Assembly (NCBI GenBank): GCA_958450365.1
Contig: CAUEEP010000683.1
Span: 62,001 to 126,000, forward strand
Reading direction: 5' to 3'
DNA from: Mesorhabditis belari
Taxonomy: Eukaryota > Nematoda > Chromadorea > Rhabditida > Rhabditidae
DNA length: 64,000 bases
The number at the start of each line of letters is the position of its first letter. The first letter of the stretch is position 1. The position numbers and the translations under genes are program-made. The notes below the pieces were generated by a model that ran no database searches, was not told where the DNA came from, and saw nothing but the letters and a program-made list of their open reading frames with translations. Of the stretch, positions 1,566 through 49,998 are shown one piece after another.

Positions 1566-1870
1566 CTAAAATTAGAATGCTCGTAATTTATTTGACTTCT
1601 ATCCATCTAAAGAACTTCATCATCATCATCAAAGTAACTGGCCAATGCTGATCGGGGAAAACTGTTTCTAACCTCTTTTCCTCTTGATGGTCCTGTTGCG
1701 CTTCGTCGTCGCTTCTATAATTGGAATGTTGGTAATGGCGTTTATTCTAATATATTCTCCCATTCTAACACTTACATAAAGATTACTTTACATATTGCTT
1801 TCTAATAAAAATTACGCCACAATCACAGAAATCAGCGCAAATGCTAGGAAAAAAGGAAAATTGAACGCAT
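1..1870 (-). CDS. KR-repeat secreted preproprotein, copy 1 (partial, frameshifted signal exon)
   Basis: First of a tandem family recognised here. Exon 1 (1870-1816) matches the signal peptide exon of intact copies but is one base short (55 instead of 56 nt) in an A/G homopolymer, which throws the signal peptide out of frame. Exon 2 (1714-1673, 42 nt) reads SDDEAQQDHQEEK with R completed across the splice. Exon 3 starts at 1565 with DGNDQGAQ and runs through the 36-bp repeat off the left edge. All junctions are phase 2 (AG|A), as in the paralogs. The predicted product is a very hydrophilic secreted protein rich in Arg, Glu and Asp. The downstream end is outside the window. The upstream TATA motif seen in the intact copies is altered here. 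Either a decayed copy or a sequencing indel; function unknown. Confidence 0.6.
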
Positions 1871-2518
1871 TTTGGATCAGTGAATCTTCGTTTGGCAAAA
1901 TCTGATTCATCGAGCTTTTATCGGCGGATTCCCCCAAAAAGTTGGTAAAAACACCGAAAAACCTTGCTTGGTTCCAGTGTTGTTGTTATCCTTAAGGCAG
2001 AAATCTTTCGGTGGAACCATTGGATCAAAAAATTCTGACCAATAACACTTAGTGATCGCTTCAAAAAAAATCGGAAAATGAAAAAGACAAATTTTTACAT
2101 TTTTTCCAAAAATTGTGAAAATTTGTTGGTCGAAAACTTCGGATTTCAATGTCTTTTTTCATTACAATAACAAGTCAATTTGGAAAATTCGTACAAAAAG
2201 TTTATGCACAATTTGCCCGTTCTGTTGACCAAACTCTTATTTCATCTCTAGCAATGGATTTCTTTGAAAACGGGATTTATTTCGTTGATCAAGCTTTTTT
2301 TCCCTTTTCGGATTGTCAAAACACATTTTTTAATTTTTGATACTACTATTATAATAAACGCTTATGCGACTAGAAGTAGGAAGAACAAGTCTGCAAACAA
2401 AGCTTTGAGAAGAAATAGATTGTCTCCAACCTCTGGTGACGTAACAAATCGAGACGACGAGCGCGGCTGCTTGGATCCTTGGCATCTCTAAACAATAAAT
2501 ATTGAAGATTTCAGTCAT

Positions 2519-3464
2519 CTATGCTTTTACAACAAACCTATCTATTCTCTTTAAGTCACGGCGAGCGGGTTGACCTTTTTCAGCATCGCCATCTCTGAAA
2601 TGGAAATTGTTTACAACATTCATCTTGAATGCAAAGTATCGCAAATCGTTTTATTGTACTTAATAATTTTTACTTATAGCACACAAGCGAGGAACTTTTC
2701 TCAAAGCTTAAAGATGCACATGATTTTTGCATCATTTACGACTAACGACTTACGAATAATAACGATACAAATAGTCGCTTGTTGTCAACTCAAATATTTT
2801 TTGGTCCCACGGGCTTTTGTGTGAAATACCGCCTGGTCGTGAATGTGTTAAAATGATAGGAGAAAACTGGCCAATAGGGATCGAAGAAAATAGTTGGAAC
2901 TAGGGCAGATCAAAATGTTGTACGGGACCGGGACTAGAACTCGCAACCTTTCGCCTACCGGACAAATCTGCTAACCCTTACACCACAACGCACTTCATCA
3001 CCCTTACTCCAGGTGGAATTAACTAAACTGTTTCTAACCTCTTCTCCCTGTCGTCGTCACGGCGTACGCGGTCGTCTCCATTATGGGAATCATCTCTAAA
3101 TAGAAATGTTAACGATCCGGATCTTTACAATTTACAATCAATCACGGTTTGCTCTTATTAATTCAAACACTTACATCACTAATAGTAATTTGAAAAGCTA
3201 TTCTGAGCAAAAGAAAGCTTCTTAGATCTGCTTGCATGATAAACACTAACCTCTTCTCCCTATCGTCGTCACGGCGTACACGTTGGTCTCCTTGCGCCTT
3301 GTCGTCTCTATAATTGGAATGCTGGAAATTGCATTTATTCCACTATATTCTCCCATTCTAACACTTACACAAAGATTACTTTACATATTTCTCTCTAATA
3401 AAACTTACGCTACAATCACACAAATCAGCGCAAATGCTAGGAAAATAAAGAAAATTGAACGCAT
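2519..3464 (-). CDS. KR-repeat secreted preproprotein, copy 2
   Basis: Four exons: 3464-3409, 3307-3251, 3095-3039, 2594-2519, total 246 nt or 81 residues. Exon 1 encodes a signal peptide (MRSIFFIFLAFALICVIVA). Exons 2 and 3 are 57 nt, phase-2 symmetric, and encode DDKAQGDQRVRRDDDREKR and DDSHNGDDRVRRDDDREKR, each ending in a Lys-Arg pair formed across the splice. In the last exon the usual GAGAAGAG|gtta donor has mutated, so the frame reads through DLKR into a short new tail and TAG. A TATA motif lies about 50 bp upstream of the ATG. Expected to enter the secretory pathway; the KR pairs are typical proprotein convertase sites (family knowledge), so it may be a peptide precursor. Ending at exon 4 is an inference. 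Confidence 0.66.
2891..2992 (-). repeat. tRNA-derived SINE-like element
   Basis: The minus strand has a tRNA-like head with an A-box-like GTGGTGTAAGGGTTAGC and a B-box-like AGGTTGCGAGTTCTAGTC, followed by a tail resembling CAAAATTTTGATTTGCTCTAGTTCCAACT. The same head and tail recur at 36981-37058. The fold is too degenerate to call a working tRNA. Confidence 0.55.
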
Positions 3465-3509
3465 TTTGGATCAGTGAATCTTCGTTGGTCAGAATCTGAT
3501 TCATCGAGC

Positions 3510-3517
3510 TTTTATAG
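3510..3517 (-). promoter_or_regulatory. TATA box of copy 2
   Basis: The minus strand reads CTATAAAAGCTCG about 50 bp upstream of the ATG at 3464. The same motif at the same distance is found in front of the other intact copies. Confidence 0.6.
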
Positions 3518-4247
3518 CTCCACAGATTCCCCTAAAATGTTGGTCAAAACATTGAAAAACCTTGTTTGGTTCCAGTGTTGTTGTGATCCTTAAGGCAGAA
3601 ATCTTTCGGTGGAACCATTGGATCAAAAAATTCTGACCAATAACACTTAGTGATCGCTTCAAAAAAATCGGAAAATGAAAAAGACAAATTGCACATCATT
3701 TTTCTAAAAATTGTGAAAATTTGTTGATCGAAAACTTCAGGTTTCAATGTCTTTTTTCATTACAATAACAAGTCAATTTGGAAAACTCGTACAAAAGTTT
3801 ATGCACAATTTGCCCGTTCTGTTGGCCAAACTCTTATTTCATCTATAGCAATGGATTTCTTTGAAAACGGGATTTGTTTCGTTGATGAAGCTTTGTTTTC
3901 CCTTTTCGAATCCTCAAAACACATTGTCCTTGAAAAAGGCGCGTTCAAAATGGTCAAGGTCGAAAAAAAATCAGTGAGAAACTCTGCAAAAACAAAGCAG
4001 AAAAAGATATTATCCCGTTTTACTACAGAGTAGTTTATATTTTCTGTCAGCTTGATAATCAGTCAACTTTGCTTTATTTGCCTTTTTCGATTCTAGATTA
4101 CTTGAAAGCAATGTTTTTTTCTAAAAGCTGCATAATTTGTAAAGTTATCGTAATGCTTTCTCCGGATTTTGTCCTATCTAATATATTTTGATCCAATCTG
4201 ATGATGGATCAAGCTATAAGTTGAATGTAATCAAAAGTACATAGATC

Positions 4248-6249
4248 GGACAAATATAATGAAAAGATTACGGTAGCTTTCCAAACTACTCACTCGCCTT
4301 TTTGCTTCACAATGACTAGCCACTAATAATAAGTTGATTCCACTAATACAGTCATGGATAAAAGTCTTTTAACGTTGGTTTTTAGAAGTTTGTCCTTTGT
4401 ATATCTTGGTCCAAATCCGATCAATTTGCAAACGGTTAAAAGATTTAAAGAGCTTATTATCTCTAATTTTAACATTACAAAAAGATGCATTTAACAATTT
4501 TTCATGAACACGGTAACAAGGCGTCATGACCTTTTTTAAAACAAAACTTGAGCCAAAATTGATGGACAAAAGTCTTTTTAACATGTGAGAAAAACATTAT
4601 GAAATCAATACTTAGTAGGTCCACCGCGAACCGCAATTACTGCTTGAATTCTCCTTGACATGCTGTCAACCAGATCACGTAGAATTTGGGGTCCAATAGT
4701 GGTCCAGACTTGACGGATGAAGTACCAAAGCTCCACTTTTGATCCGAATAGTTGCCGATTTCTGGTTGCTAACTCCGATTTTTTAGATGCCCGGCGCCTA
4801 CTTATCCACTTCGGGCCAGGAGAAAATCGTCGAAGCTCGAAAAAATGGAATATCTAGAAAAGCCGTCGCTGAGCTCTTCCGCTGTACCGAAACAACTGTA
4901 TCGCTTGTTGTCTCCAGGGCCAAACTCGCGGGAAACGTTCATCGTGCATCAAAAAAGTGGACGTCCACCAGTTACAACTTTACGAGAAGACAATGCGCTT
5001 GTTCTGGCCCACAAGAAGAACCCAAATCTAAATGCCTCTGATGGCGTGGCTATGGTGAAGCAACAATTTAACAAAGAAATTTCTCGAAAAAACGATGAGT
5101 AGACGCCTGATTCACGGTGGATTGATGACTAGAAGAGCCACCAAGAAACCTCTGATGGTAGCTAAGCACCGGAAGCTTCGTCTCGAGTTTGCTAAGAAGT
5201 ATCAAAGTTGGACGTTGCACGATTGGGTCAATGTTGTGTTCACCGACGAATCGAAAGTCAATCTTTTCGCCCCTGATGGCAGTCATTTGATACGGAGACC
5301 AGTCGGACAACGTTATAACATTAAATACTTGCGTCCTACAGTTAAATTTGGTGGCGGATCGATCATGCTATGGGGTAAGAAACTTTGTATTTTGTGCCTA
5401 CTGATTTTCTGATTTCTAGGAGCAATGTCCAGAAATTCACTGGGTCCACTCGTCCTTCTAAACTTAACGTTGAATGCTCAACGCTACAAGACGATTCTGG
5501 AGAATGAGCTTCTACCGTTTTCGACCGCAAATATGGGCCAAGGTTGATTGTTGTACCAGGACAATGCCCCGTGCCACAAGTCACAGCTGCTGATGGGACG
5601 CCGTGTTCGACTCGCCAAAGGAGGAACGGCTCTGGTGCCAGGATGGTTCAAAGCAAACCGTGTTCAACTTGTGTCTGCTCCTCCCTATAGTCCTGATTTG
5701 AATGTGATCGAGAACTTATGGGCGTTTGTGAAATCGAGATTGAAGGGGAAACTATTCGGATCAAAAGTGGACCTTTGGTACTTCATCCGTCGAGTCTGGA
5801 CAACTATTGGACCCCAAATTCTACGTGATCTAGTTGACAGCATGTCAAGGAAAATTCAAGCAGTAATTGCGGCTCGCGGAGGAACTACTAATTATTGATT
5901 TCATAATGTTTTTCTCACATGTTAAAAGACTTTTGTCCATCAATTTTTGGCTCAATTTTTTTTATTAAAGAGTTCATGACACCTGATAAATTGTTAAATC
6001 CATCTTTTTGTAATGTTAAAATTAGAGATAATAAGCTCTTTAAATCTTTTAACCGTTTGCAAATTGGTCGAATTTGGACCAAGATATACAAAGAACAAAC
6101 TTCTAAAAACCAACGTTAAAAGACTTTTATCCATGACTGTATTAGTGGAATCAACTTATTATTAGTGGCTAGTCATTGTGAAGCAAAAAGGCGAGTGAGT
6201 AGTTTGGAAAGCTACCGTAATCTTTTCATTATATTTGTCCATGACTGTA
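4248..6249 (+). mobile_element. Tc1-like DNA transposon with long inverted repeats
   Basis: Terminal repeats starting CAGTCATGGA follow a TA at 4346-4347 and face a matching CATGACTG|TA at about 6249. Long inverted arms (about 4248-4600 versus 5920-6240) flank a transposase reading frame. A paralogous locus at about 9655-9720 gives the empty site, supporting TA-target insertion. The sequence left of the true left terminus (4248-4345) is also present inverted inside the right arm, so the element is rearranged. Confidence 0.85.
4787..5898 (+). pseudogene. Tc1-like transposase (broken)
   Basis: N-terminal HTH similarity (SGQEKIVEARKNGISRKAVA), then the catalytic segments: FTDESKV (first Asp) near 5250, YQDNAPCHKS (second Asp) near 5560, and YSPDLNVIENLW (Glu, D34E spacing) near 5690-5720. 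A probable short intron with gtaag...tag lies at about 5374-5419. The open frame is split among several frames near 4960, 5095 and 5546, so it needs frameshifts or a stop to be crossed and is probably inactive. Confidence 0.8.
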
Positions 6250-6408
6250 TCAATGTTATTCATCCAATTCAGCGAGTGTGTTTTAAAGTTGTAAACTTAA
6301 ATCTTTATTAATGGACATTCAAATTCTTAATTTGTTCAGAAATTGACAAGCATGGCACTGAATAAAGCAAGGTTGAAAAATGAAAGGGATTGGTTTTAAG
6401 AAATCTTT

Positions 6409-7485
6409 TTAACGGCGGACATTGTATCCATATCCTTCTCTAAAAAATTAAAACATTAAAGAAAAAACCCATCTTACTGATAGTTGAACTGATAGTTGAA
6501 TCTATAGAACTTGTAGAGCAACTCTTCAAAGTTTACGATTTAACGTTTTAACAACTGTTTTCTTACTAACAACTAACCTCTTGTCACGAGAGGCGCCATC
6601 ACGAACGCGGTGAGCGTTTAACACAGTGGCATCGTCATCTCTGAAAGAGAGAAATTTGTAAGCAGCTTCACACATCTCTCATTTCCACTGAAGCTTTCGC
6701 AATTCACATACAGTAAAAATCTGATATAGCAAGCTTTCATAAGAAAACTGTTTTCAATTGTGCTCATGTAGACAAATAAATCCTCGATCCGTTATGAAAA
6801 GTTTCACTCACTGAGTTAATTCAAAGTTTGCCTAGACAATGCGCTGATTTTGCATGACTTGCTTAACAAACTGCAGATTTAGAGTCAGATTTTATCAGAA
6901 TAATAAGTGGATTAACTGGTCTTAACCTCTTCTCGCGGGGATCATCTCGGATGACACGGTATCCATATCCTTCTCTAAAAAATTCAAGCATTAAAGAAAA
7001 GCCGCATCTTACTGATAGTTGAACTGATAGTAGAATCTATAGAGCTTGCAGAGCAACTCTTTAAAGTTTACAATTTAACGCTTTAACAACTGTTTTCTTA
7101 TCTACAACGAACCTTTTCTCTCTTTCACGGAGTCCACGTTGATCTCCTTGGGGATCCTTAGGCATGCTTCTAGAATTGGAATGCTGGGAATGGTAACACT
7201 GCTATCTCGAATCTTAGGTACAATATTGAACCGGATTGTTTCATAGATCTGCTTGCATGATAAGCACTAACCTCTTCTCCCTATCGTCGTCACGGCGTAC
7301 GCGTTGGTCTCCATGCGCCTTGTCGTCTCTATAATTGGAATGCTGGTAATTGCATTTATTCCATTATATTCTCCCATTCTAACACTTTCACAAAGATTAC
7401 TCAACATATTTTTCTCTAATAAAACTTACGCCACAATCACACAAATCAGCGCAAATGCTAGGAAAAGAAAGAAAATCGAACGCAT
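6409..7485 (-). CDS. KR-repeat secreted preproprotein, copy 3 (intact)
   Basis: Six exons in perfect phase: 7485-7430, 7328-7272, 7169-7113, 6974-6927, 6640-6578, 6439-6409 (312 nt, 103 residues). Exon 1 encodes the signal peptide MRSIFFLFLAFALICVIVA with a gtaagt donor. Each following exon starts with one base finishing a split codon and ends AAG AG|gt, giving segments DDKAHGDQRVRRDDDREKR, SMPKDPQGDQRGLREREKR, EGYGYRVIRDDPREKR and DDDATVLNAHRVRDGASRDK plus R, then the terminal EGYGYNVRR and stop. The Lys-Arg at every exon end fits a multi-peptide precursor cleaved by furin/kex-type proteases; an alternative is a secreted disordered charged protein. A TATA box is present. I do not recognise a named family. 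Confidence 0.78.
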
Positions 7486-7530
7486 TTTGGATCAGCAAAT
7501 CTTCATTTGTCAGAATCTGATTCCCCGAGC

Positions 7531-7538
7531 TTTTATAG
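7531..7538 (-). promoter_or_regulatory. TATA box of copy 3
   Basis: CTATAAAAGCTCGGGGAATC on the minus strand, about 50 bp before the ATG at 7485; conserved in position and sequence with copies 2 and 5. Confidence 0.62.
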
Positions 7539-8021
7539 CTTTGGCGGATTCCCCTAAAAAGTTGGTCAAAACATTGAAAATCTTGTTTCGCTCCAGTGTT
7601 GTTGTTATCCTCATGGCAGAAATCCTTGGTTGCAACCATTAGATCAAAAAATTCTGGCCAAAAACACGTAGTCATCGCTTCAAAAAAAGTCGGAAAATGG
7701 AAAAACCCGATTGCACATCATTTTTCTCCAAAAAGTGCTAAGGTTTGTTGATCGAAAACGTTGGGTTTCAATTGACAGGCCAATTTGGAAAATTCGTATT
7801 TTTTGTTGATCTACATTTTGTCTATTCTGTTGGCCAAACACTATTTTATCTTTAGCACAGGATTTCTTTGCAAAGTGGATTTGTTTGATGAAGCTTTGTT
7901 TTCTCTTTTGAATTCTCAAAACACATTGATCGCGTCCTTGAAAAATGATCAAGGTCAGGCAGGAAATAAATGACAACTTTGCAAAAAAATAGCAAGCAAA
8001 AATTGTTGAAAAAAACGTAAC

Positions 8022-8225
8022 CTCTTCTCGCGGGAATCGCGAACACTTTGAACGTAGTCGAAGTCACTAAAATTATTCATTGCCTATATTTTCATTCTGT
8101 TTTAAATTCTTTTACGGTAAGCCTAATGCAAAGTTCCATCTACTTGAACAAAACTTTCACGAAAACTCACTCATCAAACCCAGAAAGCAGAACGAATGCT
8201 AAGAAAAAAAAAGAATTTGACGCAT
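8022..8225 (-). pseudogene. KR-repeat family, copy 4 (MRQIL subtype, partial)
   Basis: Exon 1 (8225-8171) begins MRQIL and is followed by a hydrophobic signal segment and a gtgagt donor, but is one base short inside a nine-base T run, so the frame breaks. Exon 2 (8066-8022, 45 nt, phase-2 symmetric) encodes DFDYVQSVRDSREK with a split Arg, then a gttacg donor. No convincing terminal exon is seen before copy 3. This subtype differs from the MRSIFF genes in signal peptide and in the FDY motif, and is shared with the copy at 12747-13019. The frameshift could be real or a homopolymer sequencing error. Confidence 0.5.
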
Positions 8226-8948
8226 TTTTTCGATGAGTTCGGTCAATCTCTTTCTTTTTTCTTGTCTAACCTTTTATGTATATCCAAATTCGCTCGGAAC
8301 AAAGAAAAAAAACCGTGATTGGTTCCAGTGTTGCAATCTCAAGGCTCAATGACTTTTAGTCAGAGTGGAACGATCGGAACGAAATTTTTCACTTAAAAGT
8401 CATGCAGTAACTGAAGAAACTGTAAATAGGTATTTGTTTCTTTGAACTCGCCAAAGCACAAGAAACTTCTTTGAAAAGGCAAGCTCGAATATTGATCAAG
8501 GAGATAAAAGGAGAAGAATAGATAAGCATGAAAATTAATCAAGTTTTGTAACATTAGTAATAAGATATATAATCTATTGCCAAGTCTACTCTTTAAACTT
8601 CAAAAACAAAGCTTTTAAGGCATTTTATTTTTATTTTCATCTTTGTAACGGATACTTTTTAACTCGTTGACTCGTTATTAAATAAACTCTCCTGTTTTCA
8701 AGCTATGTTTCACTAAACTATCTAGTTTTTGTGTCTAGCTCAAATGAATGATGAGCTCTGCCCAAAAAAAAACAAATGCCGCATTGCAAACCGCTTAATC
8801 CAAGAACTTGAGAGTAATTCCGATAAGGAACTTGAACAAATAAGATTTTGAAAGAATACAGTGTTTTGGGCATCGGATATCGGCATCATTCTAGTGAACA
8901 AATCAGAGTAAACATCTGGAAAAGCTTGAAATTTTTGTGCCCAATGAA

Positions 8949-8958
8949 CTCATATAAA
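8949..8958 (+). promoter_or_regulatory. TATA box of the Tyr/Asn-rich peptide gene
   Basis: actcatataaaaag lies about 40 bp upstream of the ATG at 8994, on the plus strand. Confidence 0.5.
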
Positions 8959-8993
8959 AAGAAATCAGTCAAGCAGAGAAATTAAGCATCTAA

Positions 8994-9294
8994 ATGGAAA
9001 TTTTTTGGCTTCTCGTGTTGATCGCCGCTTCAATGGTCTCCGCTCAGAACGAGTTCTTTGATGACGAGAAGTGAGTGCTTTCTGAATAATGGATTTTGAA
9101 CCATAATTTTGAATACAAGTAACAATTCAACTTATTATCATCCTGAAGCTCACACCAACTCCAGACCAATCCGAGCGAAACAAGCGTATTACCGAAACGG
9201 GGCCTACTTCGCCTCACCTTACAATCGATACAACAACAATGGCGTCTACTATTACAACTCTGCGTCAGCTTTAGAAGCAATCCCTTTTACTTGA
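8994..9294 (+). CDS. small secreted Tyr/Asn-rich peptide
   Basis: Two exons, 8994-9070 and 9120-9294, joined in phase (GA|GAA split, gtgagt donor, acaag acceptor), give 83 residues. The first 17-18 residues (MEIFWLLVLIAASMVSA) form a signal peptide with an Ala-x-Ala-like cleavage site. The mature part starts QNEFFDDE and is rich in Tyr and Asn, with runs such as RAKQAYYRNGAYFASPYNRY and NNNGVYYYN. No cysteines and no clear dibasic sites. A TATA box is present. It lies between two duplicated units of the KR-repeat array but on the opposite strand. Composition recalls secreted structural or antimicrobial Tyr-rich peptides of nematodes, but no family assignment is justified. Confidence 0.72.
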
Positions 9295-9838
9295 AAGTCA
9301 CACTCTTCAGTTCACCACCTACCAGATATACTTTAGTAACACGCAATACTATCGAGGCTCAAGCGGCTGAAACCATTGACGACACTGACTTTCACTGATA
9401 CAATCATCTCCAAAAGCTTCGAGAAATAAACGGTGAGATTCAGCAGGGGTTTTTCCTTATTTGAAATCGTAGATCATGGCAGCTCGAGGCACGAGCTTGT
9501 TGTCATCAATTTTTGCAGTAAAAACCACTAGCGAAGTGAAAAGGAAAATGATTATAAATCTAGTGAGTGTGTAGTTTATTTTTGTACAAAACATTACGTA
9601 AGCAAACACTTGGCAAAATTCGAAGCCCGCACTATTTTCTTTACACCGTGGTACAATAACTAACTACTAACAATATGTTGATTCAATTAATACCAATGTT
9701 ATTCATCCAATTCAGCGAGTGTGTTCTAAAGTTGTAAACTTAAATCTTTATTAATAGACATTCAAATTGTAAATTTGTTCGGAAATTAGTAAAAATGGCA
9801 CTGAATAAAGCAAGGTTGAGAAATGAAAGGGATTGGTT
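9295..9838. other. intergenic, small mariner scrap
   Basis: No gene seen. A mariner-like fragment of about 45 bp (minus strand, reading CISESQCRQWFQ) lies at about 9365-9412. From 9655 the sequence is paralogous to the 3' flank of copy 3 at 6252 onwards. Confidence 0.5.
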
Positions 9839-11325
9839 TTAAAAGAAATCTTTTCCACGGCGAACACGGTATCCATATTGTCCTCTAAAAAATTAAAACA
9901 TTAAAGAAAAAACCCATCTTACTGATAGTTGAACTGATAGTTGACTCTATAGAAATTGTAGAGCAACTCTTCAAAGTTCACGATTTAACGCTTTAATAAT
10001 TATTTTCTTATTAACAACTAACCTCTTCTCACGAGAGGCGTCTTGACGAACGCGGTGAGCGTTTAACACAGTGGCATCGTCGTCTCTGAAAGAGAGAAAT
10101 TTGTAAGCAGCTTCATACATCTCTCATTCTCACTGAAGCTTTCTCAATTCACATACAGTAAAAATCTGATATAGCAAGCCTTCACAAGAAAACTGTTTTC
10201 AATTGTGCCCATGTAGATAAATAAATCCTCGATCCGTTATGAAAAAGTTATACTCACTGAGTTAATTCAAAGTTTGCCTAGACAATGCGCTGATTTTGCA
10301 TGACTTGCTTAACAAACTGCAGATTTAGAGTCAGATTTTATCAGAGTAATAAGTTGATCAACTGATCTTAACCTCTTTTCGCGGGAATCGCGAACCCCTT
10401 GTTTTGTTTTATGTAAAAGAATTGGAATGCAAATTTATTTGAGTTGAACCGAAAATTAGCCAAGACCAAGCCAGTTTTTTTTGTATGTGCAGAGTGTGCC
10501 CTTCTCAATCGTTATCGCCATCTCTAAAAGAGTTTGAGAATAAAAAAGCTTTAAAAATGATCGCTAAACAACTTTATTTTGGCTAGTTACTGTTTTCACG
10601 AACCTTGCTTTACGAGAGAGAGGACCGCGACCACATACGTTCAGCATCAGTATCAGCATCTCTGCAAATTGAGACTCACATACGTTGAAGTACAATTTCT
10701 ATTGTCAAAATCTATCAGTAAGATTTAAGAAAAACAATTCATCCATCATTCTCAGCCAACCTCTTCTCCTTAGGAGGATCATCGAGACGAACGCGTTCAT
10801 CTTCATGAGAATCGTCATCATCTCTAAAGGGAATTGTCACCTTGACATCAATGTATTACGAATAGTTTTATTGCACTTGTCACTTACACAAACTTACGGA
10901 TAAATCGTTCTCAAAGTCTAAGATTTGTTGATGATTCACAACTAACCTCTTCTCCTTTTCGTCGTCACGGCGTTCACGTTGATCTTTTTGGGGATCCTTA
11001 GGCATGCTTCTAAAATTGGAATGCTAGGGATGGTAACACTGCTATCTTGAATCTTAGGTACAATATTGAACCGGATTGCTCAATAGGTCTGCTTGCATGA
11101 TAAACACTAACCTCTTCTCCCTATCGTCGTCACGGCGTACGCGTTGGTCTCCTTGCGCCTTGTCGTCTCTATAATTGGAATGCTGGTAATTGCATTTATT
11201 CCACTATATTCTCCCATTCTAACACTTCCACAAAGATTACTCAACATATTTTTCTCTAATAAAACTTACGCCACAATCACACAAATCAGCGCAAATGCTA
11301 GGAAAAGAAAGAAAATCGAACGCAT
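9839..11325 (-). CDS. KR-repeat secreted preproprotein, copy 5 (intact)
   Basis: Exons 11325-11270, 11168-11112, 11009-10947, 10823-10761, 10085-10023 and 9884-9839 join in phase (348 nt, 115 residues). Signal peptide identical to copy 3, then DDKAQGDQRVRRDDDREKR, SMPKDPQKDQRERRDDEKEK plus R, DDDDSHEDERVRLDDPPKEK plus R, DDDATVLNAHRVRQDASREK plus R, and the terminal GQYGYRVRRGKDFF. Two further exon relics lie in the large intron: 10661-10604 (58 nt, out of frame, with good acceptor and weak donor) and near 10375-10400 (acceptor lost). These may be skipped or are dying exons. As in copy 3 the last exon carries a GYGY/YGYRVRR motif. Probable secreted precursor cleaved at KR; role unknown. Confidence 0.75.
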
Positions 11326-11370
11326 TTTGGATCAGCAAATCTTCGTTTGTCAGAATCTGATTCCCCGAGC

Positions 11371-11378
11371 TTTTATAG
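11371..11378 (-). promoter_or_regulatory. TATA box of copy 5
   Basis: CTATAAAAGCTCGGGGAATC on the minus strand about 50 bp before the ATG at 11325. Confidence 0.62.
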
Positions 11379-11999
11379 CTTTGGCGGATTCCCCTAAAAA
11401 GTTGGTCAAAACATTGAAAAACCTTGTTTGGTTTTGAAAAACCTTCAGTGTTGTTGTTATCCTTGAGGCAGAAATCTTTCGGTGGAACCATTGGATCAAA
11501 AAATTCTGACCAATATCACCTAGTCATCGCTTCAAAAAAATCGGAAAATGAAAAAGACAAATTGCACATCATTTTTTCCAAAAATTGTGAAAATTTGTTG
11601 ATCGAAAACTTTGGGTTTCAACGTCTTTTTTCATTACAATAACAAGTCAATTTGGAAAACTCGTACAAAAAGTTTATGCACAATTTGCCCGTTCTGCTGG
11701 CCAAACTCTTGTTTCATCTATAGCAATGGTTTTCTTTGAAAACGGGATTTGTTTCGTTTGTTTTTTGTTTTCCCTTTTCGAATCCTCAAAACACATTGTC
11801 CTTGAAAAAGGCGCGTTCAGAATGGTCAAGGTCAAGAATCAATCAGTGAAAAACTCTACAAAAAACAATAACAAAGCAGAAAAAGATATTATCCCGTTTT
11901 ACTACAGAGTAGTTTATATTTGCTGTCAGCTTGATAATCAGTCAACTTTGCTTTATTTGCCATTTTTGATTCTAGAGTACTTGAAAGCCAGTGTTTTGT

Positions 12000-12425
12000 T
12001 CTAAAATCTGCGTAATTTGTAAAGCTATGTAAGTGTTTCAACGTCCGAAATAAAAAATAATCTGACGATGCAAGGTCAGGGGAGTAAGGTGCGTGAAGCA
12101 AAAGTCTCCAACCTAGCTCCTCAATTTTTTTATGAGTGGGGTTTAGCGTCATCGTCCAGAAATCGGACTCTTGACGGTTTGATCCCCAACTTCATTAAAG
12201 CTTTGTTAACTCTCACTAGTTTTTTTGAGTAAAGGTCTGTATAGACTGTTGGTCTAGGTTTTAGCATTGAGCTTTTTAGATATTTCAATAGTATAGAGCA
12301 AATCGCCATTTAAGATTTCTAGACGGCGTCCAGTTCTAGAGGCTTTCATTGCCGTCTCGAAAACGCTGAAACCATCGACGACACTGACTTTTACTGATAC
12401 AATCATCTCGGGATCCATATCTTTC
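12000..12425 (-). mobile_element. mariner transposase remnant
   Basis: Minus strand fragments of a mariner transposase. N-terminal part at about 12230-12420 (SQCRRWFQRFRDGNESL, then TGRRLEILNGDLLYTIE). C-terminal part at about 11995-12152 contains KKIEELGWRLLLHAPYSPDL and SSDYFLF, the D34D third-Asp region. The middle and the catalytic first two Asp regions are missing. It interrupts sequence paralogous to the terminal exon region of copies 3 and 5, where the exon start reads ERYGSRDD. Confidence 0.75.
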
Positions 12426-12746
12426 TCTAAAAAAATCAAAGATCAAAAGAAAAACCGCATCTTAGTAATAGTTGAATCTATAGAACTTACAGAGCAACTC
12501 TTCAAAGTTTAAGATTTAACGTTTTAACAATTGGTTTCGTATTAACAGCTTCACACATCTCTCATTTTCACTGAAGCTTTCTCAATTCATATACATTCAT
12601 ATGTATATGTAAAAATCTGATATAGCAGGCTTTCACAAGAAAACTGTATTCAGTTGTGTTCATCAGTAGTCAAATAAATCCCCGATTTGTTATGAAAATG
12701 TTATACTCACTAAGTTAAGTCAAAGTTTGCTTAGATAATAAGCTGG

Positions 12747-13019
12747 TCAACTGATCTTCCTCTTCTCACGGGGATCGTCACGATGAACACGTTGATCGTA
12801 GTCGAAATCACGGCGAACTCTTTGATCAGAGTCGAAGCCACGACGAACGCGTTGATCGTAGTCGAAGTCACTAAAATTCTTCATAGCCTCTATTTCCATT
12901 CTGTTTCAAATTCCTTTACAGCAAGCCTGATGCAAACTTCCATCTACTTGAACAAAACTTTCTCAGCAATCACAGAAAGCAGCACAAATGCTAAGAAAAC
13001 AAAAAAGAATTTGGCGCAT
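12747..13019 (-). pseudogene. KR-repeat family, copy 6 (FDYDQRVRR subtype)
   Basis: Exon 1 (from 13019) begins MRQIL but has one extra base in the T-rich stretch, and the donor seen in copy 4 is deleted. Exon 2 (12870-12747) is open and encodes three copies of a ten-residue motif: DFDYDQRVRR, GFDSDQRVRR, DFDYDQRVHR, then DDPREKRKIS and stop. The usual gttaag donor after GAGAAGAG has lost two bases, so the exon reads into a stop. The FDYDQRVRR repeats are the clearest internal repetition in the family outside the minisatellite. Probably inactive, unless the indels are assembly errors. Confidence 0.5.
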
Positions 13020-13024
13020 TTTTT

Positions 13025-13927
13025 CGATGAGTTCGGTCAATCTCTTTCTTGTTCCCAATTTTTTATAACTTTTGTGTATTTCCTAATTGCTCAAAACAAA
13101 GAAAAAACCGTGATTGATTCTAGTGTTTCAATCTCAAGGCCAAAACTCGAGTGGAACCATCAGAGAAAGATTTTTCTATTAAACGTCACGCAGTAACTGA
13201 ATAAACTGTAAATAGGTACTTACAGGTATTTGTTTCTTTGAACTTGTAAAAACACAAGAAACGTCCTTGGAAGGGCAAGCTCGAATATTGATCAAGAACA
13301 CTGGCAAGAAAAGGAGAAGAATAGATAAGCATGAAAATTAATCAAGTTTTGTAACATTATCAATAAGATATATAATCTATTGTCAAATCTAATCTTTAAA
13401 CTTCAAAAACGAAGCTTTTAAGGCATTTTATTTTTATTTTCATTTTTGTAACTGACACTTTGTAACTCGTTGACCCGTTATTAAAGGAACTCTTCTGTTT
13501 TCAAGCTTTGTTTCACTAGACTATACAGTTTTTGTGTCTGGCTCAAATGATTTTTGATGAAATGATCAAATGAATCGAAATCAAAAAAGGCGACAACCTG
13601 AAGACGCAATTTAGGCGCTTTGTTCCACAGAAACCTAGGTTGCTGTCAATAGATAAAAGATAGAGCCCGAAAAGTTAGGTATATGGCCAAATTTTCAGGA
13701 TAATCTGTTCAGCCGATTTTTTTGTAGAGCTTTTTATCGAATTTTACGAAAAACGAGTTTTTTTCACTCGACTTTCCTTGGAAAAGGACTTTTCTTAAAA
13801 AGGTAGAAAAATGAATAATCGACATTTTCTATTTAGAGCCAATTGTTGGTGAATTTGTCATTTATTTCTTCAGACTGTACCTTTTGTATTTTGTGGAAGT
13901 AGTGCTATCTATTTTGTTTATTGTTTA
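13025..13927. repeat. duplicated upstream region and diverged MITE
   Basis: 13030-13560 is paralogous to 8235-8750, showing that the copy 3+4 and copy 5+6 blocks arose by duplication. About 13570-13850 holds a diverged, inverted relative of the 0.5-kb MITE at 20597-21111 (shared stretches around the Tctatcttttatctattgac and aaaaactctacgg segments). No gene seen. Confidence 0.5.
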
Positions 13928-16119: not shown

Positions 16120-17191
16120 TCAAGAACAATTTCCAAATTCATTTGAATTTTCATACTTTGCAAAAAATTTGATTCTGTTGTCGAATTTGCTGTTTCTCGT
16201 TTTATCTTTTGTTTCGACTAAAACCAATTCATAAAAACAATTGATCGAATCACTAATCATCTGTCGATAACAAAACTTTTTCAATATTTTTTTCATGAAA
16301 CTTATCATTGTAGAAAAAGTGAATATTTTTCCAATTTTTCTGAAATTCAAGTCTTGCATTCAAGATTTCACGAATCTCCTCAAAGTACCCATTCCACGCC
16401 TGTGATTGTGGCATTTCAAGACAAAGAGTAAAGTCTAAATTCTTTGATGGAAGTCCATTCTCAACGATTTCATGAAGCTTTTGTGTAAAATAGTTGTGAT
16501 TCGATGTAGAGCAGAGAATTAATCTCTTCAAGTGCTCAAGCTTTGCATAAATGCTCAAATCGGGTAGATCTGCTTCGATAACTTTGATTTGTTTACAGGA
16601 AATGAGATGATTTTGCAGAAAATTCAAGTATATATGCACTTGATCGGAGTCACAACAGGTAAAAGAGACAAATTTAGTGACGTGAAAACGGAGATCTTTA
16701 AGGAGTTCCCAAAAACAGAATAAATCATCAGGGCCTGCCTGGAATTCGTCGACAATTCGCAGATTTTGGAAACTTTTAATTAGCAAGTCGAGCTCCTGCT
16801 TTTTCGAAGGATCACTTTTCCCAAGAACACAATGTGTTTCCCAAGCAAGCTTTTTGCAAATGACAAGTTTTTGAAAAGTTCTCATAATTAGAGCGTTGCT
16901 AACAGTGAACTCAAAGCTAGTCGATTTATCAACAATTTTTATTCGTAAAGGCTTCGGTAATATTTGACGGTCATGTCCGATTGCGAAAAAAGTGATTGAC
17001 ATCTCATTAACAGATTTTCCGAAAATTCCATTTAATAGAACATAAGATCGAAGAGATTTGTTGACTTTGAGTAAATCGATGAGTAAAGTTGGTTGAAGAT
17101 TCTCCAAGATCGACTTTTTAAGCTCAAATGGGAGACGGTTCAGCGGGAAAGCGGAATGATCAGTTGAGTTTTTCTGACCCATTTTGGACAA
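16120..17191 (-). CDS. F-box protein, copy 1 (one frameshift)
   Basis: Single-exon frame starting MSKMGQKNSTD. Residues about 17-55 (NRLPFELKKSILENLQPTLL, LLKVNKSLRSYVL) form an F-box, which would bind SKP1 in SCF ubiquitin ligases (family knowledge). The remaining about 250 residues lack a domain I can name but align along their length with the paralog at 18568-19650. Near 16290 a run of seven T (plus strand) replaces six in the paralog, ending the frame early at 16253; the continuation ILKKFCYRQMISDSINCFYE is found in the next frame down to 16120. Likely a single-base error or recent mutation. Confidence 0.68.
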
Positions 17192-17593
17192 GATTAGCTT
17201 AAGAATATTTCAAGCAATGCAATGAGAATTTGAATTTGAACAAAGGCAAAAGATTTCGAGGCAAGAGTTGCAGAAAATTTTTTTGCAAAACGGTGTAGAA
17301 AGTTTATTAGGCAGCATCGAGAAAAATGGAAAAAGACATTCAGGCAAATGTTGTTAGAGAGATAAGAACCTTTCAGCGAGGGGTTTTCAATCAATTGATG
17401 GACACTTTTTTAGTCTTCTCTCGATGGTTTGTGCAAAGTGTAAAGAACTAAATTTCTACTGCAAGTATTCTGTTTTTTTACGCGATTTTTAGCTTGTTGT
17501 TATCCAATAATGAAGGTGTGAATTGTAAAGAACGATTTAAAAGAATTTATTTAAAAGTTCACATAGCATGAAGGAGTTTTTAGCACCTTATGC

Positions 17594-18567: not shown

Positions 18568-19650
18568 TCAATTCAATTCGTATTTCGCAAAAACTTTGAT
18601 TCTGTAGTCGAATGTGATGTTTGTGGCTTTTTCTTTTGTTTCCACTAACACCAATTCATAAAAACAATTGATCGAATTACTAATCATCTGTCGATAACAA
18701 AACTTTTTCAATATTTTTTCATAAAACCTGGCATTGTAGAAAAAGTGAATATCTTTCCCGTAATATTTCTGAAATTCAAGTTTTGCATTCAAGATTTCAC
18801 GAATCTCTTCAAAATTCTCAGTCTTTTCTTTCGCTTCGGGCCTTTCAAGGCAAAGAGTGAAATTGGGATTTTTCGACGAAAGTCCATTGTCAATGATTTC
18901 GTGAAGTTTTTGCGTTGAGTAATGATAATCGCCTATATTGCAGAGAATCAATTTGTTTAATCTCTCGAGTTTTACAAAAGCTTTCATGTCAAGTGGACAG
19001 GTTTCGATCACTCTCACTTGTTCACAGGAAATCGGATGCTTGTGCAAGAATTTTGAATAAATTTCCATTTTAGTCGCATCACAACAAACAAATGAGGCAG
19101 ATTTAGTGACTTGAAAATGGAGATCTTCAAGGAGCTCCCAAAAACAGAATAAATCATCAGGGTCGATCTGGAGTTCGTCGACAATTCTTAGAGTTTGAAA
19201 AATTTCAATCAATTGCTCAAAGTTCTGTTTTGTTGAATCCTCACTTCTTCCATAAATTCGATGTGTTTCCCATGAAAGTTTTTTGCAATGAACAAGCTTT
19301 TGAAAAGTTTTCACAAGTAGAGAAATGCTGCTAGTGAATTCAAAGCCTGTAGATTTATCAGCAACTTTCAATCGCACATATTTCGTTAATATTTGACGCT
19401 TTTCTCTGTGTGCAAAAAAAGTGATTGTCATGTCTTCGACAGATTTTCCGAAAATTCCATCATTTAGAATATAAGATCGAAAAGATTTGTTGACTTTGAG
19501 TAGATTAATGAGTGAAATTGGTTGTAGATTCTTCAAGACTGTGTTTTTGAGTCCAAAAGGAAGCTGGTTTATTGGGAAAGTTGATTGATCAGTTGAGTTT
19601 TTCTGGCCCGTTTTTTGAAATATTGATTTCAGAAATACTTGCAGTAGCAA
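18568..19650 (-). CDS. F-box protein, copy 2
   Basis: One uninterrupted frame of up to 360 residues. The region matching copy 1 begins at about residue 13 (QKTGQKNSTDQ), so the true start may be at the first Met (19650) or the gene may have a short upstream exon. F-box at residues about 29-68 (NQLPFGLKNTVLKNLQP, LLKVNKSFRSYIL). The C-terminal part ends KFCYRQMISNSINCFYELVL and FDYRIKVFAKYELN. Predicted substrate adaptor of an SCF ubiquitin ligase in cytosol or nucleus; substrate unknown. Tandem duplicate of the gene at 16120-17191, separated by MITEs. Confidence 0.75.
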   Translation of the reverse strand: MLLQVFLKSIFQKTGQKNSTDQSTFPINQLPFGLKNTVLKNLQPISLINLLKVNKSFRSYILNDGIFGKSVEDMTITFFAHREKRQILTKYVRLKVADKSTGFEFTSSISLLVKTFQKLVHCKKLSWETHRIYGRSEDSTKQNFEQLIEIFQTLRIVDELQIDPDDLFCFWELLEDLHFQVTKSASFVCCDATKMEIYSKFLHKHPISCEQVRVIETCPLDMKAFVKLERLNKLILCNIGDYHYSTQKLHEIIDNGLSSKNPNFTLCLERPEAKEKTENFEEIREILNAKLEFQKYYGKDIHFFYNARFYEKILKKFCYRQMISNSINCFYELVLVETKEKATNITFDYRIKVFAKYELN

Positions 19651-19843
19651 AATGGTGCTAAAGGTTTCTCAATATGGAGAAAGGGGAAGGAAAAACGTTT
19701 CAGCCAGAGATAAGAACCCATTTGTCTTCAATCAATCAATTGGAATGACTGTGTGCTGTTTTGTGTTGCATTGTGTGTTTAGGTTATCGGTTTCAATCAG
19801 AAGTTCGCAGAACAGTGAGCGTTTTGAATTTACCTATTATCTA

Positions 19844-44379: not shown

Positions 44380-46560
44380 AAAGCAACTTTGGCACTTCCA
44401 AATCCAAATTTTCCCTTTATTAGTCGAAAGTCGAAGGAAAATTCGAGTCGGAAGGCGCACTATATTTCTTAGCTAACGTACTGGTTCAAGATTTAATTCT
44501 TAATGCCTGAAAATTTTATTATTTGCACAATTTTTACTTTTCCATTAAACCCCTAACTGACGTCAGAGCAATGTTTCTCTTTGTTAGTGAACTTTAAAAG
44601 TAAATTTTTGAAAGCGTTTGTAGCTGGACATGAGAACATGAAAATGGGCATGAGAACGCACCGAGTGCTGGTCCTTTTTCTCACCAAAATTTAACGAATC
44701 ATTTGACTCTTGCCAAAGTGTTTCAGCAACTTTCATAGAATATATTTTAGCGATAAGATTATTGACTAACTATTATGCAGCTTGAGTATGTGAAGTCAAT
44801 TTTGTTTCAGTTATATAAGAATGAGATTATTCTCGTATCTTTCTTGACGGTAGTTTTACAAGGTTTGTTGGAAGATTTTTGCTATTTTACGATCAAATCC
44901 AGCAAGCGCTATTCTTGTACAATTTTGTGCTGAAAATGATTGGACTATTTTGGACTACGATTCGCTGATCGACATCGAGTACGAGTTGGAAGCAGACATT
45001 GTAGAGCATATTTCGGCTGGAACACTTTTGGTAAACTTTGGAACATTCTGGGGCACTTTGTAGCTTTATTAGGCTGTTATACTTGGCTTGATTATGACTC
45101 ATATAAGATTGTCGTTTAATTCTTAAGAAAATTTATCTAGGTTGTTGTGCTCGGCTTGATTGTGACTCCATTTGCGATCTATTTCTCTGCGACCAACGAT
45201 CGACTCACATTTTCGATTAGGTAACGCTCAATTTGTGATCAAAAACCATCTTAAGCAAACAGAAATCAGAAAAATCTGGTGCGCTTAAAGATAATGAAAC
45301 TTTAAACAAGTTGATCAATGTGAACCTCAGAATTATAAAGTTTACAAATGTGGCAGTACAAATATTTATAAATGGATCTCTTATCTTGTCCTGTTCAAAG
45401 CTATAGTTTTTGTCAAAAACTTCAATTCTAGACTTTTGGCAACAGTCGAAAGCATTTGCAAATTTGTCTACATCATCGCTTTTCTTCTGCTTAACATCTG
45501 TGATTTTTTGAAACAACATTTGAAGAGCGACTTTACATGCTCTGAAAACCTTCGCCTAACTTTCATCGATATTTATGTATTCACCGTCAATGACTACAGT
45601 TTTTATGATCTTTCACAGTTTTGTCAACTGATCATCTCATTAAGCCGATTTTTCGCAGTCTCTTTTGATGGAAGCTATTTCAAATACACGTCGAGATTAC
45701 CATTCTTACAAGTTCTGCTACCATTTGTGCTTCGATTTCTGTTTACAATTGTGAAAAAGCTCAAGGGTGGATCTACATTGGGATTCTCATTTATCGATGT
45801 CTATATTATACCATTCTTATCCTTTTTAACATGTGCTCTGGATTTGATGACGAATCGGAAGATGAAGACGGTAGGTTCATGTCGTTTATCTTTAGATTCC
45901 ATTCATGAGTACCATTGTGTAAACAATGGTAACATAAACAAGCGCAATCAGTAAGCCTGGTATTAAAAGCTGTCTTTGTACTCATTTTTTAAAATTTAGC
46001 TGCGGCGAGCTGGAAAGGCATCAAGAGCTGAGAACTTTTTAATGTTTCAAGTGAGTGAGTGAATTCTTGGAGAGCTGAGATCTCCGGTCTCAGTACAATT
46101 ACTGTATTTGGCATGTATTCTTTTTATCACGAAATACGGTGCATACTCTCTACAAACTTAAAGAACATTGGTTTTTACAAGCTGAATTCATTTCAATTTG
46201 AATCTCTTTTATCTCTTAGCAACATACTTTGTTTCAGATGTTGTGTAATACATTCGTCATCCTCATCAACTCAATATTTCTCTATGCTGTACTCATAATT
46301 ATTGAGCTCTTCTTTGGCTTCAGTATAATCATGGTCTACAGCGAGCTGCTCATTTTCTTAAAGACACTGTTTTTTACGTTGATTACGAGGTGAAACAGGA
46401 TTTTAGGCAGCCAAATACAGAATTTAGTCTGACTAGTGCCTTATTTCTTCGCAAACCGAAGGAAAAAGCAAGAAGAAACACAGTGTCGATCACCGTTTCA
46501 CCTAGACCGTCAAAAGGTCACTAAGTAACTCAGTTTTGTTCAATGATGCTTGAATAAAAA
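44380..46560. repeat. segmental duplication, unit 1
   Basis: Near-identical to 47285-49400 over about 2.1 kb, including introns and flanks; the last 0.3 kb is also present at 51355-51664. Confidence 0.88.
44775..46524 (+). CDS. 7TM chemoreceptor-like protein, copy 1
   Basis: Exons 44775-44862, 44903-45030, 45141-45220, 45432-45870, 46000-46050, 46238-46389 fit in phase. Hydrophobic stretches: LVVVLGLIVTPFAIYF, SICKFVYIIAFLLLNICDFL, PFLQVLLPFVLRFLFTIV, DVYIIPFLSFLTCALDLM, and ILINSIFLYAVLIIIELFFG; the motif ISLSRFFAVSFDG after TM3 resembles the Srt/Srv/Srx-type receptors, but I cannot place the family. After exon 6 (ending TLITR) the frame meets a stop; a 17-nt GT...AG stretch later the tail RQPNTEFSLTSALFLRKP continues in the matching phase to 46524. 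A 17-nt intron is implausibly short, so the tail arrangement is uncertain. Confidence 0.65.
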
Positions 46561-47284: not shown

Positions 47285-49400
47285 TACTTCTCAAAGCAAC
47301 TTTAGCACTTCCAAATCCAAATCAAAACCAAACAATCCAAATTCTTCCTTTATTAGTCGAAAGTCGCAGGAAAATTCGAGTCGGAAGGCGCACTATATTT
47401 CTTAGCTAACATACTGGTTCAAGATTTAATTCTTAATGCCTGAAAATTTTATTATTTGCACAATTTTTCCTTTTGCCTTAAACCCCTAACTGACGTCAGA
47501 GCAATGTTTCTCTTTGTTAGTGAACTTTAAAAGTAAATTTTTGAAAGCGTTTGTAGCTGGACATGAGAACATGAAAATGGGCATGAGAACGCACCGAGTG
47601 CTGGTCCTTTTTCTCACCAAAATTTAGCGAATCATTTGACTTTTGCTCAAATCTTTTAAAAAATTTCAAAAAATATAATTTATCGATAAGATTATTGACT
47701 AACTATTATGCAGCTTGAGTATGTGAAGTCAATTTTGTTTCATTTATATAAGAATGAGATTATTCTCGTATCTTTCTTGACAGTAGTTTTACAAGGTTTG
47801 TTGGAAGATTTTTGCTATTTTACGATCAAATCCAGCAAGCGCTATTCTTGTACAATTTTGTGCTGAAAATGATTGGACTATTTTGGACTACGATTTGCTG
47901 ATCGACATCGAGTACGAGTTGGAAGCAGACATTGTAGAGCATATTTCGGCTGGAACACTTTTGGTAAACTTTAGAACATTCTGGGGCACTTTGTAGCTTT
48001 ATTAGGCTGTTATATTTGGCTTGATTATGACTCATATAAGATTGTCGTTTAATTCTTAAGAAAATTTATCTAGGTTGTTGTGCTCGGCTTGATTGTGACT
48101 CCATTTGCGATTTATTTCTCTGCGACCAACGATCGACTCACATTTTCGATTAGGTAACGCTCAATTTGTGATATCTAAATCAATAATCATTCTAAGCCAA
48201 CAGAAATAAGAAAAATCTGGTGCGCTTAAAGATATTGAAACTTTTAACAGGCTGATTCAATTTGAACCACAAAATTATAAAGTCTACAAGATGTGAAAAT
48301 GGACCTTTTATCTTGTCCTGTTCAAAGCTATAGTTTTTGTCAAAAACTTCAATTCTAGACTTTTGGCAACAGTCGAAAGCATTTGCAAATTTGTCTACAT
48401 CATCGCTTTTCTTCTGCTAAACATCTGTGATTTTTTGAAGCAATATTTGAAGAAGCACTTTACTTGCTCAGAAAACCTTCGCCTAACTTTTATCGATATT
48501 TATGTATTCACCGTCAATGACTACAGTTTTTATGATCTTGCGCAATTTTGCCAGCTAATCATCTCATTAAGCCGATTTTTCGCAGTCTCTTTTGATGGAA
48601 GCTATTTCAAATACACGTCGAGATTACCATTCTTACAAGTTCTGCTACCATTTGTGCTTCGAATTCTGCTCACCACTGTAAAAAAGCTCAAGGGTGAATA
48701 CGCATGGGGATTCTCAGCGATTGATAGCTACATTATACCGTTTTTCTACTTTCTAACGTGTGCTCTAGATTTGATGACGAATCGGAAAATGAAGACGGTA
48801 GGTTTATACAGTTTTTCTTTAGAGCCCATCCGTTGAAAACCATACATTACAACCATACAAGCTAAGCCGTCTTTGTATTCACAAGCATGTCTTCAAAATT
48901 CAGCTGAGACGAGACGGAAAGGCATCAAGAATTGAGAACTTATTAATGTTCCAGGTGAGTGCGTTCAATTTTTGAGAATCTTAAAGAAAGTTTGTGTTTA
49001 AAAGCTGGATGCATTTCACTTTCGATTTCTTTTTTCTCTTAGCAACATATTTTGTTTCAGATGCTGTGTAATACATTCATCATTCTCATCAACACAATAT
49101 TACTTTATGCTGTACTCCTAATTATTGAGCTCTTCTTTAGCTTGAGTATAATCATGGTCTACAGCGAGCTGCTCATTTTCTTAAAGACACTGTTTTTTAC
49201 GTTGATTACGAGGTGAAACAGGATTTTAGGCAGCCAAATACCGAATTTAGTTTGACTAGTGCCTTATTTCTTCGTAAACCGAAGGAAGAACCCAGACGGA
49301 ACACAGTGTCAATCACCGTTTCACCTAGACCATCAAAAACTCGCTCACTAACTTAGTTTTGTTCATTGATGTTTGAATCAAAAAGTTTTTCGCCATGATA
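47285..49400. repeat. segmental duplication, unit 2
   Basis: Second copy of the unit at 44380-46560. Confidence 0.88.
47708..49356 (+). CDS. 7TM chemoreceptor-like protein, copy 2
   Basis: Tandem duplicate of 44775-46524 with the same exon structure: start MQLEYVKSILFQLYKNEIIL, second exon EYELEADIVEHISAGTLL, large exon from about 48360 (CKFVYIIAFLLLNICDFLKQ ... SLSRFFAVSFDGSYFKY ... TCALDLMTNRKMKT). Differences cluster in the extracellular-loop and TM4-5 part (KHFTCSENL, LKGEYAWGFSAIDSYIIPF). The same 17-nt GT...AG stretch precedes the polar tail, which ends SPRPSKTRSLT at 49356. Uncertainty as for copy 1. Confidence 0.65.

Positions 49401-49488: not shown

Positions 49489-49998
<510 letters not shown>

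Follow-up and report, generated by a model that had tools for sequence, protein, structure and literature searches.

A tandem cluster of candidate secreted precursors built from phase-2 exon units in a nematode genome

What is made by a run of tandem genes whose coding sequence is divided among short, charged exons of a single phase? Such genes occupy part of the window analyzed here, a stretch of 64,000 nt corresponding to positions 62001-126000 of contig C510 in a genome of 207.6 Mb and 714 contigs. Six first-exon copies were found in the window, at 13019 (E), 11325 (D), about 8224 (F), 7485 (C), 3464 (B), and 1870 (A). All coordinates are window positions, all cluster exons lie on the minus strand, and exon ends were judged by AG/GT splice sites together with frame and phase. 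The genes combine TATA-type promoters, a hydrophobic first exon, and phase-2 units that mostly pair an acidic stretch with basic sites. The best reading, which we hold with a little less than even confidence, is that they encode secreted precursors from which proprotein convertases would release short acidic peptides and that would have evolved by exon duplication and array growth. It draws on the 14 phase-2 exons, the enrichment of R-x-K/R-R tetrads, Arg at P4, the synonymous variation of Arg codons in mid-unit cores, the retention of RERR while the spacers around it vary, the differences between haplotypes in gene G and array length, and the convertase-type exons of the genome.

Two layouts were observed, with one unit per exon in genes B, C, and D and many 12-residue units within a single exon in genes A and G, the latter located outside contig C510. 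The only clean complete chain in this contig is gene C, which has a TATAAAA box, a signal-type first exon, four units, a last exon with a stop codon, and AATAAA. The exons of genes C and D are listed below; apart from the decayed D exon 5, the internal exons were recognized by AG/GT splice ends, phase 2, and an open frame.

7430-7485, minus strand: gene C exon 1, signal peptide (by eye); TATAAAA at 7531-7537
7272-7328, minus strand: gene C exon 2, DDKAHGDQRVRRDDDREK(R)
7113-7169, minus strand: gene C exon 3, SMPKDPQGDQRGLREREK(R)
6927-6974, minus strand: gene C exon 4, EGYGYRVIRDDPREK(R)
6578-6640, minus strand: gene C exon 5, DDDATVLNAHRVRDGASRDK(R)
6409-6439, minus strand: gene C last exon, EGYGYNVRR and stop; AATAAA at 6304-6309
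11270-11325, minus strand: gene D exon 1, signal peptide (by eye) MRSIFFLFLAFALICVIVA, donor GTAAGT; TATAAAA at 11371-11377
11112-11168, minus strand: gene D exon 2, DDKAQGDQRVRRDDDREK(R)
10947-11009, minus strand: gene D exon 3, SMPKDPQKDQRERRDDEKEK(R)
10761-10823, minus strand: gene D exon 4, DDDDSHEDERVRLDDPPKEK(R), divergent on contig C647
10604-10661, minus strand: gene D decayed exon 5, with an in-frame stop and a length not divisible by 3
10023-10085, minus strand: gene D exon 6, DDDATVLNAHRVRQDASREK(R)
9839-9884, minus strand: gene D possible last exon, GQYGYRVRRGKDFF and stop; AATAAA at 9747-9752

A preliminary description of this DNA had proposed at least six tandem minus-strand paralogs between 2519 and 13019; six first exons are present in the window, but that interval holds five of them (E, D, F, C, and B), with A lying outside. 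First exons are of the MRSIF type in A, B, C, and D and of the MRQIL type in E and F, the two types described earlier, and the signal peptide was judged by eye from the hydrophobic sequence, for example MRSIFFLFLAFALICVIVA. The TATA box had been assigned to all copies; B, C, D, and E have TATAAAA some 50 nt upstream of the ATG, and the box is altered in A and F. The proposed internal exons of 42-63 nt with phase 2 on both sides were recovered in 14 cases with AG/GT ends and an open frame, a count without D exon 5, which has a stop and a length that is no multiple of three, and E exon 2, which has no donor. Since the unit exons are symmetric, skipping one of them would be frame-neutral, in agreement with the earlier proposal. 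Lys-Arg (KR), which had been expected at every junction, ends 12 of these 14 exons, B exons 4 and 5 being without it, and 14 of 19 once G exons 2 and 3, the G array, the A array, and A exon 4 of contig C526 are added. The exon end GAGAAGAG, thought to be near-universal, is exact in 9 of the 14 internal exons, and the GYGY/YGYRVRR-type last exon is confined to C and D. On the other hand, two features had been overlooked: most units contain a further, central basic site (RVRR, RERR, or RARR), and the array genes carry 36-nt units inside a single exon. The basic sites of the units are mostly an RVRR/RERR-type mid core and a terminal REKR-type site.

The enrichment of basic sites was evaluated by composition-preserving shuffles of B, C, D, E, and the non-array part of A. 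The tetrad R-x-K/R-R was observed 5 times in B (expected 1.4), 5 times in C (1.1), 5 times in D (1.0), and 3 times in E (0.6), a 3.6-5.4-fold enrichment with p values of 0.001-0.011, which exon duplication makes too small. At P4 of the window's 12 KR ends, Arg is found nine times. AG joined to A at phase 2 necessarily reads as Arg at the end of a unit, and Lys is encoded by AAG at every KR end except that of C exon 3; therefore, constraint on the protein and constraint on splicing are inseparable at the unit ends. The mid cores lie away from the splice sites. Among 20 aligned cores, Arg was retained 18 times at R1, 17 times at R3, and 16 times at R4, each column using several codons, and the pN/pS values of these columns were 0.32, 0.33, and 0.63, so that change is mostly synonymous. 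This set omits the second exons of D, F, G, and A (those of G and A have no mid core), includes the divergent D exon 4 allele (D4b), and represents the A array by its first unit only. The proposal of a cleaved secreted precursor family remains the best one, with its support shifted from KR pairs to R-x-K/R-R tetrads and synonymous Arg codons.

The array genes extend this pattern. In gene A, the array exon covers positions 1-1565 on the minus strand and runs on past the window edge, with 36-nt units GAQRERRDDKEA. On contig C526 it forms one open frame of 1,082 codons and 89 units, of which 87 contain RERR, while variation is mostly limited to positions 1, 9, 10, and 12. Gene G, an array-type paralog with all exons, was present only on C526 (C526:136386-137862) and comprises a first exon MRSIFLLFLAFALISVIVA, the exons DDDAQGEHEKQKR and DAKDPSSRARRHDPPRHER, an array exon of 597 nt, and a short last exon. 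RERR is found in all 16 units of the G array, which ends in KDKR. In a genome-wide array search, at least 63 matches were listed, all of them on C510, C526, and C647; the repeat counts from this search are lower bounds.

These three contigs carry the cluster locus with 98.1-99.7% identity over main alignments of 12-20 kb, and we read them as uncollapsed haplotypes or homeologs, which would provide a natural comparison. Outside the window, at its left end, C510 aligned more poorly with C526 (82-94%) and may be of lower quality there. Gene G and the array lengths differ between the haplotypes, with the frame kept on C526. At the position of G, some 1.8 kb is missing from C647 and C510, which do not have the G body. 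The A array is about 3.2 kb long on both C510 and C526 but some 2.4 kb on C647, where it holds about 68 units. Another difference concerns D exon 4, in which 7 of 63 nt (11%) on C647 differ from C510 and C526, while the flanking introns are nearly identical. Elsewhere, 26 substitutions, taken by hand from the contig alignment, were found in about 11.5 kb, giving an excess in this exon at p ~4e-10. Simple positive selection on the exon was rejected, as three of the seven differences are synonymous. The exon could be an old allele, or it could hold a short tract converted from an exon that was not assembled; no donor of such a tract was found among the cluster loci compared.

Is this structure peculiar to the cluster? 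Unit exons were found at one locus only, on the three near-identical contigs. A strict exon pattern (TNAG, A-start, AAGAG followed by GT, open phase-2 frame, 36-78 nt) gave six cluster matches in the window, one match elsewhere on the minus strand, and none on the plus strand. In the whole genome, GAGAAGAGGTTNGT had 29 matches, 15 of them inside the three cluster copies; the 14 outside do not exceed the count in a reversed control (21). Such exon ends therefore characterize this family rather than donors at large, and the idea that GAGAAGAG followed by GT is a common donor context genome-wide was not supported. Of the 44 matches in a protein search of the same genome, 39 fell in the cluster, and the other five (C523, C568, C550, C569, and C692; E 0.03-0.64, 21-43% identity) were taken as chance. 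A 1.6-kb DNA query from gene C also matched C552 (two places) and C211, by promoter and exon 1 only, and no unit exons were found at C552:1529401-1533400, one of these three dispersed places.

Searches of family databases gave little. Proteins C and D had no Pfam match above cut-off (eight families for D, at E 0.0065-0.4, were all below it), and C, the only protein scanned against NCBIfam, had no match there. The sole Pfam match of the array open reading frame was RDM3_C (PF23348; E 1.6e-25, 90.7 bits, cut-off 35 bits), a match that in our opinion reflects low complexity rather than homology. A search of solved structures with the array returned no match, and none of the papers listed in literature searches described a matching family. 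These genes probably represent an unrecorded peptide-precursor family, and we provisionally regard the family as undescribed. The genome contains 430 exact copies of the 22-nt SL1 leader, and none were found in a reversed control; it is therefore a nematode genome. Seven matches to convertase P-domain exons indicate that it also encodes convertase-type enzymes.

If the genes are precursors, their products could be processed as follows. The first exon would serve as a signal peptide and be removed, a kexin/furin-type convertase would cut after R-x-K/R-R in the secretory pathway, and carboxypeptidases would trim the basic residues. Short acidic peptides such as DDKAQGDQ, DDKEAGAQ, and DSGEPLAQ would be released, and C and D would additionally yield Tyr-Gly-containing ends. 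Unequal exchange would alter the number and kind of peptides with the frame intact, since each intact unit is frame-neutral. With cleavage as predicted, the exon unit would coincide with the processing unit, and the locus would show how a repertoire grows both by exon duplication and by tandem growth within one exon; the three assembled copies with differing unit numbers make such growth testable in one strain. The family would then be a secreted one absent from the family libraries searched. A further step, which we consider distinctly unlikely, is a lineage-specific peptide-library locus, in which each unit exon or 36-nt repeat would be a frame-neutral cassette for an acidic peptide with its own convertase sites, and exchange between haplotypes would reshuffle the secreted set. 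Such exchange would be seen in the presence or absence of gene G, the array of 89 or about 68 units, and the locally divergent exon 4.

The other copies are less regular, and no clear terminal exon was found for B. Their exons are listed below; those of B from exon 2 onward were recognized by splice ends, phase 2, and frame.

3409-3464, minus strand: gene B exon 1, signal peptide (by eye) MRSIFFIFLAFALICVIVA; TATAAAA at 3510-3516
3251-3307, minus strand: gene B exon 2, DDKAQGDQRVRRDDDREK(R)
3039-3095, minus strand: gene B exon 3, DDSHNGDDRVRRDDDREK(R)
2538-2594, minus strand: gene B exon 4, DGDAEKGQPARRDLKRID(R), without KR end
2431-2487, minus strand: gene B exon 5, DAKDPSSRARRLDLLRHQ(R), without KR end
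1816-1870, minus strand: gene A exon 1, frame broken in this contig
1673-1714, minus strand: gene A exon 2, SDDEAQQDHQEEK(R), 42 nt
8022-8066, minus strand: copy F exon 2, DFDYVQSVRDSREK(R); F exon 1 near 8224 is broken
12965-13019, minus strand: copy E exon 1 (MRQIL), frame broken on C510; TATAAAA at 13061-13067
12747-12870, minus strand: copy E exon 2, three 30-nt DFDYDQRVRR-type units, then REKR and stop; donor GT absent

The frame of A exon 1 is open on C526, with which C647 aligns at this exon, and that of E exon 1 is open on both other contigs. No donor GT was found at the expected positions of either E exon. The in-frame stop of D exon 5 is identical in all three contigs, and this exon could be either terminal or skipped.

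A number of results weigh against cleaved precursors. Damage was found in A, D, E, and F, and the A array frame is lost after 637 codons on C510 and after 358 codons on C647, breaks that may be errors or real. The mature parts of C and D differ with pS 0.091 and pN 0.098, an about neutral pN/pS of ~1.07, and their exons are 9.5% divergent versus 6.4% for noncoding sequence (Fisher p 0.17), without significant constraint. [KR]R pairs are no commoner than composition gives in B, C, D, and E (p 0.29-0.57), p being 0.095 in the short non-array part of A, where the single R-x-K/R-R tetrad (expected 0.14) is not significant either (p 0.14). In the mid cores, strict R-x-R-R occurs in just 11 of the 20, and some non-Arg columns are as low in pN/pS (-2, 0.52; x, 0.44; +1, 0.34; +2, 0.52); only -3 (1.09) and -1 (4.46) are high, which blurs the contrast. 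Motifs containing Arg served as anchors of the alignment, so part of the amino-acid conservation in the Arg columns is built in. No amidation signal (GKR or GRR) was seen in the units read by eye. Much of this would suit a repeat cluster that is for the most part in decay and persists through repeated unequal exchange, its KR ends arising from phase-2 splice sites and a purine-rich enhancer of splicing rather than from selection on the protein. The forced junction Arg, the nearly invariant AAG codon, the neutral C-D comparison, the broken exons (E, F, A exon 1 on C510, the A array on C510 and C647, D exon 5), and the first-exon relics without unit exons all agree with it. We nevertheless regard decay as decidedly improbable, in view of the finding that GAGAAGAGGTTNGT is no common donor context outside the cluster, the synonymous variation of mid-core Arg codons away from splice sites, and the one open array frame of 1,082 codons.

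The proteins could also be secreted and remain uncut, as charged repeats that form either a single helix resembling a rod or a disordered polyampholyte, perhaps in matrix, mucus, or eggshell; the basic motifs would then pair charges and not be cleavage sites. This possibility is on the unlikely side. It accords with the balanced charge of B, C, D, and E (D+E ~25-31%, R+K ~30-33%, net charge -1 to +4), with KR pairs at the level given by composition, and with a model, made without an alignment, of a 120-residue array segment as a single continuous helix (mean pLDDT 90.7), a prediction that would fit a structural role. Single-sequence AlphaFold, however, tends to return helices for charged repeats, a 40-residue E segment was modelled as mostly helix at low confidence (mean 60.4), the array units contain Gly and Asp pairs, and R-x-K/R-R tetrads are more numerous than composition gives. 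A highly improbable alternative is that skipping of symmetric exons serves to vary the secreted proteins, as has been suggested for schistosome micro-exon genes, with cleavage secondary. The small symmetric exons, the hydrophobic first exon, the faster evolution of the mature part relative to exon 1 (identical between C and D), the concentration of haplotype differences in D exon 4, and the stop-bearing D exon 5, which would need skipping, point in this direction. Against it, schistosome micro-exons are typically up to about 36 nt, smaller than the exons found here, and the synonymous share of the D exon 4 differences gives no simple signal of positive selection. Cleaved secreted precursors remain the preferred, if tentative, explanation.

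Elsewhere in the window, minus-strand open reading frames at 16253-17209 and 18568-19668 had F-box-type matches, the second above the Pfam F-box cut-off and the first below it. Transposase_1 (mariner-type) and Tc3-type HTH matches above cut-off were found at 55826-56431 and 50497-50931, and weak Srx chemoreceptor matches below cut-off at 45298-45954 and 48297-48836. A near-pure A run of 252 nt is located at 49684-49935.

The cluster resembles several known systems by plan only, and its membership in the Baramicin/apidaecin, nematode polyprotein allergen (NPA), or micro-exon gene groups is not established. Nematode FLP and NLP neuropeptide precursors carry a signal peptide and short peptides with basic sites between them; in the present units, unlike in those precursors, Gly does not precede the basic sites for amidation, and a conserved bioactive core was not seen between the sites. 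Schistosome micro-exon genes have coding sequence mostly in small symmetric exons, a fast-evolving mature region, and secreted products (PMC4350168). Most coding sequence of the present genes likewise lies in such exons (14 of phase 2, 42-63 nt), except in A and G, but the phylum is different and basic processing-type sites occupy the exon ends. The polyprotein allergens ABA-1/NPA are tandem polyproteins cut at K/R-x-K/R-R, with few or no introns in the repeat region (PMC3079579), and the array genes A and G share the absence of introns from the repeats. NPA units, however, are folded lipid-binding proteins, whereas the array units have 12 residues, and no lipid-binding domain appeared among the above-cut-off Pfam results for C, D, and the array. 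In Drosophila Baramicin A, and in apidaecin as cited with it, tandem related peptides of a secreted precursor lie between RXRR furin sites (PMC8423362). The main Baramicin peptides described there have 23 residues and are antifungal, while the units of the present cluster have ~10-21 residues, are acidic between the sites, and often occur one per exon. What the two share in plan is a precursor, here putatively secreted, with related units between RxRR-type sites; in B, C, D, and E, R-x-K/R-R sites are more frequent than composition gives.

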